64,000 nt of DNA from Marvania coccoides (Eukaryota > Chlorophyta > Trebouxiophyceae > Chlorellales > Chlorellaceae), in the NCBI GenBank assembly GCA_963854735.1, contig OY978099.1:744001-808000 (forward strand), read 5' to 3'. The number at the start of each line of letters is the position of its first letter. The first letter of the stretch is position 1. Below are positions 2,078 to 61,319 of the stretch, one piece after another. Made by a program: the position numbers and the translations under genes. The notes beneath the pieces were generated by a model that had not been told where the DNA came from, did not search any database, and saw only the letters and a list, made by a program, of their open reading frames with translations.

Positions 2078-3172
2078 ATGCGGCCCTCTTTGCGCAGGCT
2101 CGTCATCCTGGCCATCGCCGCTTCCATAACAACCACCGTTATTGCCAACGCCGTCAATGCTAACGACACGGGACAGCCCGCTGGCGATGACGAAGAGGTG
2201 GACCTTTTGAAATGGGCGTTGAAGCACAGCGATCCCGACGCTCTGCGCGACCAGGCAGAGGAAAACCAAAAGGCCGACGATCCCGACGCTGCAGAAAGAA
2301 TTGCGCGCGCAGCAGCCTTCCTGCAGGCCGCCAGCGGGCCCAGCGAGGCGCAGCTCATGGAGGAGGCCTTGGCAGTGCTGGCCAACGCCAGCGCAGCTGC
2401 CATCGACGAGCGCCTGGCGGCTTTGCAGGCGCTTGAAGTTTTGGTCGAGCCAATAGACAACGCAGACCACCTGCTGAAGATTCAAGGCGGCGTGGCGGTA
2501 CTGGTGGAGCTGCTGGGTACCGCACCAGCCCTGGAAGCCGCTTCAGCGCGCGTCCTGGCGGTTGCTGCTTCCAACAACGCTCCCTTTCAATCGAGGGTGT
2601 TAACCGACCGCCCTGACGTGGTGCTGCGGCTGGTGCAGCTGCTGGGCGCGGCAGCGGAAGACACGATGACGTCGGCGCTGCATGCCGCTGGGCAGCTGGT
2701 CAGAAACACGCCCCAGGGGCGGCTGTTGTGGGCGGAAGCTGGAGGTGGTGATGTCCTCGTGTTAGTGGTGCAGGGCGGGAAGCAGGCCAGCGTGCGCGCC
2801 AGAATCAAGGCGCTGGCGCTGGCAACGGACCTGCTGGCGCATGCGGAGGGTTCGGAAGGTGCGGAGAAGTTGGCGGTGGCGGTGGCCAGTGTTTTGAGAG
2901 AGCAGGCGGCTGCGCCAGGGCAGGGGGCGAAATTGGAGTTGATGATGGTGGAAAAGGCGGTGTTGGCGGCGGAAGCGGTGCAGTCGTGCGTGGGTGGGGG
3001 TCAGGCGTTGCGGCAGGCGGATGGGGCAGCAGCAGTCGAAAGAATCATGGCGGCATTAAAGAAAGAGCCGCAGAGCGAATACGTGGCTGACATAATGGCG
3101 CTGGGGGTGGGTTTGTTGAGAAAAATCGACGGGGTGGAAGGGCAGGGTGGTGATAGAAGAGACGAGCTCTGA
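2078..3172 (+). CDS. SIL1: ER-lumenal Hsp70 nucleotide-exchange factor, SIL1/FES1 family (364 aa)
   Basis: Single-exon gene. The ATG at 2078 is chosen because it opens a signal peptide (MRPSLRRLVILAIAAS and following); the open frame extends further upstream without an ATG. After the signal comes the FES1/HspBP1 motif LLKWALKHSDPDALR, then armadillo-type helical repeats rich in Ala and Leu (for example GGVAVLVELLGTAPALEAAS). The C-terminus is GGDRRDEL, an RDEL-type ER retrieval signal. Known family role: releases ADP from the Hsp70 of its compartment; the signal peptide and RDEL point to the ER Hsp70 BiP, hence SIL1 rather than cytosolic Fes1. An AATAAA lies at 3217. The gene converges on the selenoprotein gene downstream. 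Confidence 0.82.
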   Translation: MRPSLRRLVILAIAASITTTVIANAVNANDTGQPAGDDEEVDLLKWALKHSDPDALRDQAEENQKADDPDAAERIARAAAFLQAASGPSEAQLMEEALAVLANASAAAIDERLAALQALEVLVEPIDNADHLLKIQGGVAVLVELLGTAPALEAASARVLAVAASNNAPFQSRVLTDRPDVVLRLVQLLGAAAEDTMTSALHAAGQLVRNTPQGRLLWAEAGGGDVLVLVVQGGKQASVRARIKALALATDLLAHAEGSEGAEKLAVAVASVLREQAAAPGQGAKLELMMVEKAVLAAEAVQSCVGGGQALRQADGAAAVERIMAALKKEPQSEYVADIMALGVGLLRKIDGVEGQGGDRRDEL

Positions 3173-3384: not shown

Positions 3385-3469
3385 GGCCATGAGGTGCGTG
3401 GCTCTGGCAAGGAGACTCTGCTGCCGCAGATTTCACCTCCTTGCCGTCATAAAGCATCCCCATGAAGCC
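3385..3469 (-). promoter_or_regulatory. SECIS element (selenocysteine insertion sequence), form II type
   Basis: Read on the minus strand, 24 bases after the stop codon of the UGA-containing gene. Helix I: GGC, CATGGGG and TGC (3469-3454) pair with GCACCTCATGGCC (3397-3385), with a TT and an A bulged. Then comes the quartet: ATGAC on the 5' side (3450-3446) faces AGAG on the 3' side (3405-3402), giving the tandem G-A/A-G pairs. Helix II: GGCAAGGAG pairs perfectly with CTCCTTGCC, extended by two G-U pairs. Above it is an unpaired GAAA, then a mini-stem TCTGC/GCAGA capped by GGCA. This fits the known eukaryotic SECIS plan: AUGA/GA core, 11-13 bases to the unpaired AA, extra apical helix. The fold was done by eye. 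Confidence 0.85.
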
Positions 3470-3492
3470 TAGCTGCGTGTATGTCATCACAG

Positions 3493-3876
3493 TTAATGGT
3501 TCATTTGTTGTGGTGGCAGCGGCGGTGCCGTAATGCCTTCCAAGGCAACAGCAGGCTCGCCTGGCTCCCTTGAAATCGCCACTCGCACCACGCTGTGCAC
3601 CTCCTTCTTCGGCTCCAGAGAAAACTTCCCCATGAGCTGCACAAAAGAGAGAGGGCTAAAGGGTCAGCTGTCGGTGAGAAAAATGAAGAGGACCGAAGAA
3701 ATTTGGCACCGTTAAGCCTGTCCCACCTGCTTGAAGGAGTTCTTTAATCATTTCTTGTGCTCCTCCGGCGTGGCCTCCACGAATTCCTTCGAGACGAACG
3801 GAACATGAGATTTCAGCTTTTGAAATGCCGTAGTGGGGTGCTCAGCGTCACCCTCCTTGTGGCTGTCGCAACTCAT
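3493..3876 (-). CDS. Small selenoprotein of unknown family (127 aa, one in-frame UGA)
   Basis: Two exons: 3876-3727 and 3636-3493, with a GT-AG intron that joins in phase 0. Exon 1 opens with MSCDSHKEGDAEHP and reads on to PEEHKK, then TGA (3750-3748), then LKNSFKQ. Exon 2 starts LMGKFSLEPKKEVHSVVR and ends at TAA. One frame runs through both exons apart from this TGA. A complete SECIS-like element lies in the 3' UTR, so the TGA is read as selenocysteine (residue 43), not as a stop. The product is soluble, charged and probably helical. It lacks the CxxU motif of thioredoxin-fold selenoproteins, and I do not recognise the family. Alternatives are a truncated 42-aa product or a gene with a base error, but the SECIS argues against both. 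An in-frame stop precedes the chosen ATG. Confidence 0.72.
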
Positions 3877-57923: not shown

Positions 57924-60900
57924 ATGAGGGTGCTGGGGCCTCCAGCCCTCCTGGCTGTGCTGGCCCTGTGTTGGAGTCAAGGCAAGAGATCAATCAATGA
58001 AATCCGCAATTCTATGCCACAAATAGATCAGTCTCGACAGATGATTGACATGATCACTCAGTAGGTTCGGATCGCTCACATGCACCACCCTCCCGCGCCC
58101 TTCCCCCCTCTTTCTTTTTCTCCGCCAGCCAATGCAGCTGTGCAGGTGCAAGGGCGCCTCCTCAAGCAAACTGCAGCCACGCGAGTCTGCGGCCAAGAAC
58201 CCTACTTCGACCCCGTCAACGCACCACAGTTTGGGGATGTAGAAGCCCCAGCTGAGCTGGGCGGCGAAGGGCCCCCCGAAGTATTTGATGCCGAAGTGTC
58301 TGCTTTGGTCCCGGTGTGGGAGTTTGGCTTGCTCTATGGACTCTCCGTCGAAGCTCTGGTAAGCGACGTGTTTAGAGCAATATTTGCTTTGAACTGATAA
58401 TGCAGTCATGTTGTGTGTGCGGCTCAGAAGGGGGAAAAACACTAACAAACGCCGGCCTTTTTTCCTTCATCTCTTGCAGTACATCCTAGGCGCAGACACC
58501 GTGGGCGCCGTTGGAGGGCCCGACGGTCGCATCAGGGCCATTTACAACCTGGGAAATTACGACGCACCCGCCACGGCCACTGCACGCGCTGGGCTGGATC
58601 CCGAGACCGCCTGGCCGTGGACGGTGCAAGTTTACACCGGCGGCATTGGTGATTTCCACAAGAATGATCCTGAAAAGGGGCTGACCGGCGACTTCTGGAT
58701 GCCGCCCAGGAACATTTCCAACTACCCCGACCCGCTGCCCGGCGAGGAATACGACTGCGTGCCCGGAAACGAGCGCAGCACCATCGTCACGTACGTCTGC
58801 GGCGCTTCCGTGTTCGACCCAGAGGCTGGCCACTATGTTTTCACGGTGGACATGGTGGAGAAGACGCCGTGCAACTTTGAGCTGACAATAGAGTTGGAAG
58901 AAGCATGCCTGTGCCCTTCCACTCTTTGCGAGGCGACGCAAACGCTCTGCCCTTCATCCCCCCCCCCTCCTCCGCTCGACAGCCCACCGCCGCCCGTTGA
59001 CAGTCCCCCACCACCCATTGAGAGTCCCCCGCCCCCTGACAACTCTCCCCCACCGCCGGAGGAGCCCTTGGCTTCGCCGCCACCACCAGAGGAGGCGTCT
59101 CCGCCACCGCCCCTGGAGGCTGATTCTCCTCCTCCGCCCCTTGATTTCAGTCCACCCCCACCCGTTGAGGACTCGCCTCCTCCGCCATATGTAGAGAGGC
59201 AAGTCAGAATAAGATTCAACTGACGTCTTTACGGGAAAAACTATCTGATTCCACCGATAATTCTGTTTTGCAGCCCTCCCCCACCCGTGGAGGACTCGCC
59301 TCCTCCGCCCGTGGAGGACTCGCCTCCTCCGCCCGCTGAGGACTCGCCTCCTCCGCCCGTTGAGGACTCGCCTCCTCCGCCGTATGTAGAGAGGTAAGTC
59401 AGGATAAGATTCAGCCGACGTTTACACGAAACAACTGACTGATTCCACCGATAATGTCTGTTTTGCAGCCCTCCCCCACCCGTGGAGGACTCGCCTCCTC
59501 CGCCCGTGGAGGACTCGCCTCCTCCGCCCGCTGAGGACTCGCCTCCTCCGCCCGTTGAGGACTCGCCTCCTCCGCCCGTGGAAGACTCGCCTCCTCCGCC
59601 GTATGTAGAGAGGTAAGTCAGAATAAGATTCAGCCGACGTTTACACGAAACAACTGACTGATTCCACCGATAATGTCTGTTTTGCAGCCCTCCCCCACCC
59701 GTCGAGGACTCGCCTCCTCCGCCCGCTGAGGACTCGCCTCCTCCGCCCGTTGAGGACTCGCCTCCTCCGCCCGTTAAGGACTCGCCTCCTCCGCCCGTGG
59801 AGGACTCGCCTCCTCCGCCGTATGTAGAGAGGTAAGTCAGGATAAGATTCAGCCGACGTTTGCACGAAACAACTGACTGATTCCACCGATAATGTCTGTT
59901 TTGCAGCCCTCCCCCACCCGTCGAGGACTCGCCTCCTCCGCCCGTGGAGGACTCGCCTCCTCCGCCGTATGTAGAGAGGTAAGTCAGGATAAGATTCATC
60001 CGACGTTTGCACGAAACAACTGACTGATTCCACCGATAATGTCTGTTTTGCAGCCCTCCCCCACCCGTGGAGGACTCGCCTCCTCCGCCGTATGTAGAGA
60101 GGTAAGAATAAGGAATTTTAGTGAAGGGGAGCATGTGCAGAAGACCGCTTTGTATGTTGCAACATTCTCCTCCTTGATTTTCGTCCAAACATGAATTTTA
60201 ACTAAACATGAATTGCACTGCTTGCTCATAATATTGGAATGATCATCAAGGAATCGATATTTTACTTTTTTCATATTATATAGCATTGATATTAGTATTT
60301 ATGCAAAGTTGACGTAGTACTAGTACGAACGGAAAAGATCTGACTGACTCCGTGAATTTAATTTTTGCAGCCCTCCCCCACCCGTTGAGGACTCGCCTCC
60401 GCCGCCAGTTGAGGAGAAATCGCCTCCCCCACCCGTGGAGGACTCGCCTCCTCCGCCCTATGTAGAAAGGTGAGCTAGAAAGACTGGCGTCTTTCATGCG
60501 AAGCAACAGACTGGTTTTACCTTACTAACTTGCAGCCCTCCCCCACTCACCAAATCCAGTCCACCCCCTCCCGAGGAGGACTCTCCTCCTCCACCAAAAG
60601 AGCCCGAAGCCTCGCCGCCGCCGCCAGTGAAGCCCATTGAGTCTCCGCCACCACCCATCAACGAGGATAGGTAAGAATCAAAGGATTGTAGGGTTATTTT
60701 GCCTAATTTTTTTATCAGCGTTCTGTTTCTTCTACTATCTCTTGAGCGATTATAGTAGCAAATTTTTAAATCTTCCATTTTGGTTTCTTTCAGCCCTCCC
60801 CCGCCGACGGTTTCCAGTCCACCGCCCCCCTCCCCGGTCGAGAGCAGCCCGCCGCCGCCCTCGTTAGGCGGCGCTACAGTAAGCTCTCCTCCCCCTCCTA

Positions 60901-61319
60901 AGTCCCTGCCTACCTCCTCCCCGCCTCCTCCCGCCATCGTCGTCGACAAGTGCGTGAAGACGACCGGCATCAAGGTGGTCCTTGTGGTGGGCGCCAAGCG
61001 GTGCTCCTCTGTCATCATGAACGCCGCCGCAAAGACCGCGTTAAAGTACTCTTACTCACGCTCAATGAAGAAATGTGGCGTGACCACCACCGCCGGCTGC
61101 AAATACCTCCGCAAGAACGTCGTGCAGGTGTCAGTGCGGCTGAAGTTCATCGCCGACCGGTATAAAGCCAGGAAGGCCGTGAACATAGCGCTGGCCAAGT
61201 ATAAGTTCCAAGACTACATGAACGCCCTGCTTCTTTCAAGCGGCCGCAAAGTGGCGCTGCGGAGTCACAGCGTGTGTATCCTCGGCAAGAAGGATCGCTA
61301 CGGCAAAATGTGCAATTGA
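57924..61319 (+). CDS. Ser-Pro4 hydroxyproline-rich extracellular glycoprotein (764 aa)
   Basis: Eleven exons: 57924-57981, 58129-58358, 58480-59198, 59274-59393, 59469-59612, 59688-59831, 59907-59978, 60054-60101, 60371-60469, 60536-60670 and 60794-61319. Introns 1 and 3 have GC donors (GCAAGA, GCAAGT). Signal peptide MRVLGPPALLAVLALCWSQG. A globular domain (about residues 22-335) includes YILGADTVGAVGGPDGRIRA and ERSTIVTYVCGASVFD, then VEKTPCNFELTIELEEACLC, which resembles an MRH lectin fold. A long SPPPP array follows (units like SPPPPVEDSPPPP, YVE at exon ends). The last 130 residues are basic with six or more Cys (KCVKTTGIKVVLVVGAKRCS). Likely a cell-wall or matrix protein, like pherophorins in design but without the usual pherophorin domain sequence. 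Confidence 0.82.
59199..60101 (+). repeat. Tandem array of exon plus 75-nt intron units
   Basis: Five introns, at 59199-59273, 59394-59468, 59613-59687, 59832-59906 and 59979-60053, are each exactly 75 nt and almost identical (starting gtaagtcaggataagattca, ending ctgttttgcag). The first has a GC donor and several base changes. The exons between them (120, 144, 144, 72 and 48 nt) are all multiples of 24 nt, built of SPPPPVED-type units. Each begins CCCTCCCCCACCCGT and ends TATGTAGAGAG. Confidence 0.92.

Follow-up and report, generated by a model that had tools for sequence, protein, structure and literature searches.

The short gene on the minus strand at 3876-3493 of the window, the 64,000-nt stretch of Marvania coccoides contig OY978099.1 analyzed here (744,001-808,000 of the forward strand; all positions are window coordinates), raises the question of whether the TGA within its reading frame is a stop codon or is read as selenocysteine (Sec) and, in the latter case, whether the product belongs to a selenoprotein family that has already been described. 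Our results suggested, with a probability of roughly 0.92, that the locus is a genuine nuclear selenoprotein gene, the host being an alga whose plastid is of the green type. The features of the locus are listed in Table 1.

Table 1. Features of the candidate selenoprotein gene and its 3' hairpin
Feature	Position	Strand	Evidence and remarks
Exon 1, selenoprotein CDS	3727..3876	minus	150 nt; ATG 3876-3874; codons 1-50; codon usage
In-frame TGA, read as Sec43	3748..3750	minus	TGA implied by first two residues (M-I) of P0001 and P0002
Intron	3637..3726	minus	90 nt, GTGGGA...GTGCAG; in-frame TAA inside; implied introns of relatives 92 and 89 nt
Exon 2	3493..3636	minus	Codons 51-97 plus TAA 3495-3493; codon usage; identity in P0001/P0002
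Type II SECIS with 13-pair lower helix	3385..3469	minus	Fold, Rfam, pattern scan, genome-wide comparison
SECIS core, 5' side, ATGAC	3446..3450	minus	Rfam alignment, pattern scan
Unpaired apical AAA	3431..3433	minus	Fold, Rfam alignment
Apical mini-stem TCTGC/GCAGA	3417..3430	minus	Minimum-energy fold
SECIS core, 3' side, AGAG, tandem G-A pairs with ATGA	3402..3405	minus	Rfam alignment, pattern scan

Direct checking of the sequence confirmed the two-exon gene with a lone in-frame TGA, at codon 43, that had been proposed in a preliminary description of this DNA. The coding sequence contained 98 codons including the stop, which after splicing gives a product of 97 residues with Sec at position 43, MSCDSHKEGDAEHPTTAFQKLKSHVPFVSKEFVEATPEEHKK-U-LKNSFKQ/LMGKFSLEPKKEVHSVVRVAISREPGEPAVALEGITAPPLPPQQMNH (the slash, as in the translation, stands between the exons). 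The 127-codon product of the preliminary description was wrong; a product of 127 residues was ruled out, the figure being an unspliced count that included the 30 codons (90 nt) of the intron. Upstream of the ATG at 3876, in-frame stops were found at 7, 11, and 13 codons. Codon usage was scored after training on 2759 codons from five long reading frames of this genome, four of which came, uncurated, from the window. Exon 1 before the TGA scored 3.4 in the proposed frame, with the other five frames at -6.4 or lower, and exon 2 scored 5.9 versus -6.3 or lower elsewhere. The seven codons from the TGA to the intron scored -0.9 versus 0.3 for the best other frame, which are too few codons to tell. 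The modest size of this signal and its absence from the seven codons after the TGA favor a true stop, in which case the locus would encode a 42-residue peptide or be a decaying gene, and the hairpin beyond it would be a chance structure or a relic. As to the continuation of the coding frame beyond the TGA, it was seen in the sequence itself, in the codon usage of exon 2, and in the relatives.

The gene is convergent with a plus-strand gene at 2078-3172 that carries a Fes1 nucleotide-exchange-factor domain (PF08609, 54.4 bits) and a C-terminal RDEL, and because of this ending its product is probably an ER (Sil1-like) factor. Elsewhere in the window, at about 58393-61319, long reading frames that are rich in SPPPP and carry tandem repeats, which read as GGGGESSTGGGG repeats on the other strand, resembled an algal hydroxyproline-rich cell-wall protein, and an acidic reading frame at 28-900 on the minus strand had two stretches each of the UBA domains PF22562 and PF00627.

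Among 5.8 billion proteins searched, only two matched, P0001 (732-nt contig) and P0002 (629-nt contig), both from ENA, and a profile search with these relatives (147 candidates) found the same two proteins. Both are close relatives known as proteins from short contigs, and the comparison with them covered the region from the TGA onward at the protein level. In each of them, the start codon overlaps the TGA one frame over, and the reading crosses the intron, open in that frame, into exon 2. The M-I with which they start corresponds to xTG-AT(T/C/A), which holds a TGA with any start codon (ATG, GTG, or TTG), so that TGA is implied in both relatives. The first eight residues of P0002 were those of the window DNA read in the overlapping frame. 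The introns implied for P0001 and P0002 were 92 and 89 nt long, against 90 nt in the window, and with these lengths the joint frame of both exons would be kept only if the transcripts are spliced; the donor and acceptor codons were compatible with GT...AG. Exon 2 was identical to that of the window at 39 of 43 residues in P0001 and at 27 of 31 in P0002. When the two relatives were compared with each other, 29 of the 31 residues of exon 2 were identical, and the intron read as protein was identical in 17 of 31 columns (one hand-placed gap). Between the TGA and the intron, P0002 required zero changes, while the fewest changes implied for P0001 were TTA to TTG and AAG to AAA, both silent in the Sec frame, plus AAG to CAG, which replaces Lys by Gln; all three would change the amino acid in the other frame.

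These comparisons imply that the TGA and the frame beyond it are conserved in the two close relatives. The check that had been proposed earlier, for homologues with UGA or Cys at residue 43, gave an implied TGA in two of two relatives, and no Cys homologue was found in the protein searches (5.8 billion proteins, the query before the TGA, and the profile). Residues 1-42 used alone as the query gave no match, and homologues were found neither in viral contigs nor in prokaryote genome contigs. Conservation of exon 2 beside introns of varying length, together with the TGA implied in both relatives, argues against a true stop. The same M-I starts bear on a sequencing error at codon 43, by which a sense codon of an ordinary small gene would have been misread. 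A single wrong base would suffice for this, but both relatives imply the TGA and a SECIS is present downstream, and such an error appears extremely improbable.

The hairpin lies in the 3' UTR on the strand of the gene, and all the parts attributed to it earlier (ATGAC, AGAG, helix, AAA, and mini-stem) were present in the fold and the alignment. It was assigned to type II because of its apical mini-stem TCTGC/GCAGA. The SECIS helix, GGCAAGGAG/CTCCTTGCC, continued into a G-U and a U-G pair, giving 10 pairs in the minimum-energy fold and 11 consecutive pairs when the U-G pair was counted by hand. The lower helix did have the 13 pairs of the preliminary description (3469-3385), broken on its 5' side by unpaired bases; it begins 23 nt past the stop codon, with four outer pairs that begin 18 nt past it. 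The Sec codon and the SECIS were separated by 207 spliced nucleotides. The folding z score of the hairpin was -3.59, and one of 200 shuffles folded as well. The Rfam SECIS_1 model matched over its full length at 3458-3393 on the minus strand with 32.4 bits (E = 3e-4 in a 1.2-kb stretch), under the cut-off of 35, and the whole window gave no match at the Rfam gathering cut-off. This score below the cut-off weighs on the side of a true stop.

The specificity of the hairpin was assessed with our own SECIS pattern scan for ATGA or GTGA cores, which was written with the window element already in view. On both strands of the 64 kb, two matches scored at least 18, the window element with 26 and another with 18. 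When the window was dinucleotide-shuffled 300 times (38.4 Mb of strand) and scanned for ATGA cores alone, five matches of at least 26 were found, corresponding to about 0.017 per 64-kb window on both strands, a somewhat favorable figure because the scan was written after the element had been seen. Such a rate, for a hairpin that lies on the right strand and so close behind the stop codon, is hard to reconcile with a true stop at codon 43, which we consider improbable. Of the genome's five control elements, three scored at least 20 (locus L003 and two glutathione peroxidase elements, GPXa and GPXb); the SelT hairpin scored 14 and was found only with a lowered threshold, and the SelW hairpin, whose apical site is CC and not AA, was missed by the scan and located by eye.

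Throughout the genome, the pattern ATGACGGC, 28-42 bases, GCCNGA occurred 25 times, and 7 times when read backwards. Counted inward, the consecutive pairs of the 25 matches numbered 11 in the window element, 10 in the GPX element at C4:707k, 7 in the GPX element at C4:231k, and at most 5 in the other 22. With one mismatch allowed, the window element and the GPX element at C4:707k both reached 11, and the GPX element at C4:231k (7) was tied by two unrelated matches. According to these pair counts, the window element came first on unbroken helix length, beside the two GPX elements. Its folding energy of -23.5 kcal/mol was not the lowest among the 25, an unrelated match reaching -24.5. It is the unbroken helix length, the feature that defines a SECIS, that sets the window element apart; energy alone would not. 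In a genome-wide search with RF00031, in which 133 of 268 candidates were scored, L003 alone matched; the absence of the window element from the list counts against it, though the hairpins behind the SelT, SelW, and two GPX genes were missing as well. Of 14 prokaryote control genomes, 4 also had matches to RF00031 below the cut-off. When Rfam was run on the control loci at E values up to 10, one of the five control elements was listed, L003 being the sole SECIS match. A MAFFT alignment of the five control SECIS elements left their 3' strands unaligned and was therefore not used for a covariance model.

The element at L003 (L003:1501-1570, contig C11:317707-317776 of the genome, plus strand) is a second SECIS, with 33.1 bits for SECIS_1 against the cut-off of 35. 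It lies 3' of an apparent small spliced gene, the last exon of which (L003:1162-1404) had no Pfam match. A Sec codon was sought in this gene and could not be placed; the gene is possibly another unlisted selenoprotein.

The genome searched comprised 22.46 Mb in 15 contigs. The rbcL gene on contig C15 had as its best PDB matches 8q04 and 1gk8, which we take to be green-algal rbcL structures. The host would then be an alga whose plastid is of the green type, in the simplest case a green alga. Components of the selenium machinery were sought as tRNA-Sec, SepSecS, selenophosphate synthetase (selD), and eEFSec, and all four were found. The tRNA-Sec scored 74.1 bits (cut-off 47; one of four matches above the cut-off) and carried the anticodon TCA as judged by eye, and SepSecS and selD scored 409.9 and 271.8 bits, respectively. 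The eEFSec was assigned by its best PDB match, 5izk (286.6 bits; locus L050), since none of the 26 matches of the selB model in the genome was above the model cut-off. The other matches of that model presumably include a protein like organellar EF-Tu (L047), one like EF-1-alpha (L048), and one like IF2 (L049).

In addition to this machinery, the genome had a SelT-like gene with CTSU (L009), a SelW-like gene with CGGU (L010), and four GPX loci, two of them with Sec (NVASLUGK, NIASKUGLT; L013, L015), the names and motifs being our assignments in addition to the Pfam matches. Each of these four Sec-containing genes was followed by an ATGAC-type hairpin, and they served as controls; the Sep15/SelM family was not found in the genome. 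Because the machinery and conventional selenoproteins with ATGAC hairpins are both present in the genome, the host should be able to make selenoproteins. The idea that TGA is generally read as sense here found no support and is contradicted by the tRNA-Sec and eEFSec and by the neighboring Fes1-domain gene, in which TGA is an ordinary stop (3170-3172); its likelihood appears vanishingly small.

In the product of the candidate selenoprotein gene, Sec stands in the context HKKULKN with no Cys nearby and no CxxU, the latter as first described, and Cys3 is the only cysteine. No Pfam family was above the cut-off, the sole listing being PF25746 with an E value of 0.2; the PDB had no match to the protein, and the genome had no second copy at E values up to 0.001. 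The combination of CxxU and an Rdx domain (PF10262) that would mark SelW, SelT, or SelH was absent, as was the GSHPx domain with its Sec motif of the glutathione peroxidases (PF00255). There is one TGA only, in place of the two Sec residues given for MSP, a membrane selenoprotein, in PMC2375036. The earlier statement that the product fits no known family was upheld in part, its scope being Pfam families above the cut-off, the PDB, and the protein searches, which gave no relatives beyond the two.

AlphaFold predicted exon 1 alone, with C at position 43, at a low to moderate mean pLDDT of 67.6, with helices at 14-24, 30-33, and 37-48 and pLDDT values of 81 for residues 31-40 and 73 for residues 41-50. 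Since residue 43 falls in the predicted helix 37-48, Sec43 would lie inside a helix. Exon 2, predicted with the two relatives, had a mean pLDDT of 68.9, which is of low confidence, and showed no secondary structure. The product may be a small soluble redox protein. In the proposed mechanism, the mRNA would be transcribed and spliced and then translated from the ATG at 3876, the 3'-UTR SECIS would recruit eEFSec and tRNA-Sec, and with these the UGA at codon 43 would be decoded as selenocysteine, yielding the 97-residue protein. The selenol of Sec43 might then react with an oxidant or a thiol, and the oxidized Sec43 might conceivably be resolved by Cys3 or glutathione.

Whether the family is new is a separate matter. 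According to PMC7539508, a survey of 137 algal species gave 42 families, including PDI_e, AhpC_b, and SymSEP as the three new ones, and a "Hypo" family whose members contain Sec in 80% of cases; new eukaryotic selenoprotein families are uncommon by this measure. Three hypothetical selenoproteins without assigned function have been described in Ostreococcus (PMC2375036), and PMC11092101 reports 11 selenoproteins in Picochlorum, found by match to known families. The window gene could accordingly belong to a family already in print, such as these hypothetical proteins of Ostreococcus or other algae or the "Hypo" family, which would touch its novelty only. Against this, 5.8 billion proteins gave only two near relatives, although such a negative is weak evidence on novelty since Sec proteins are probably cut at UGA in these data. 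The literature search found no paper recognizable as describing the window gene. We regard membership in a published family as a real but minor possibility. On balance, we lean toward a selenoprotein gene of an undescribed family. To a similar degree, we favor a new eukaryotic family within a narrow algal group, in which a lone helix Sec with no CxxU, Trx-type signature, or known Cys form makes selenium-dependent chemistry possible.

Selenoprotein searches rely on conserved Cys homologues, as stated in PMC7539508. Since neither a Cys homologue nor a CxxU was found, this gene would probably escape searches by homology as well as ordinary gene finders. If confirmed, it would be a selenoprotein for which no known redox fold hints at the function. 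It also suggests that searching small algal genomes for SECIS elements first can still yield new finds.

Compared with known systems, the window gene shares with the GPX, SelT-like, and SelW-like genes of the same genome an in-frame TGA and an ATGAC hairpin in the 3' UTR, and the layout of the GPX element at C4:707k, with a 10-pair helix and a 5-bp mini-stem, is nearly identical to that of the window element. The protein differs from theirs in that it has no detected homology to them, no CxxU or GPX motif, and no Pfam family above the cut-off. By description, it resembles the Ostreococcus hypothetical selenoproteins 1-3 and "Hypo" in having an algal host and no assigned function (PMC2375036 and PMC7539508). 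The SECIS elements of O. tauri have a G before the core in all but one case (PMC2375036), whereas the six elements examined here have an A, a count from searches that leaned towards ATGA. Among the new algal families of PMC7539508, PDI_e has a GUGUU motif and AhpC_b a UxxC motif, both missing from the window protein. SymSEP is likewise a recently described algal family, with a Sec form confined to one group; it has Cys homologues with CxxC and a detected Trx-like domain, whereas the window protein has no CxxC motif.
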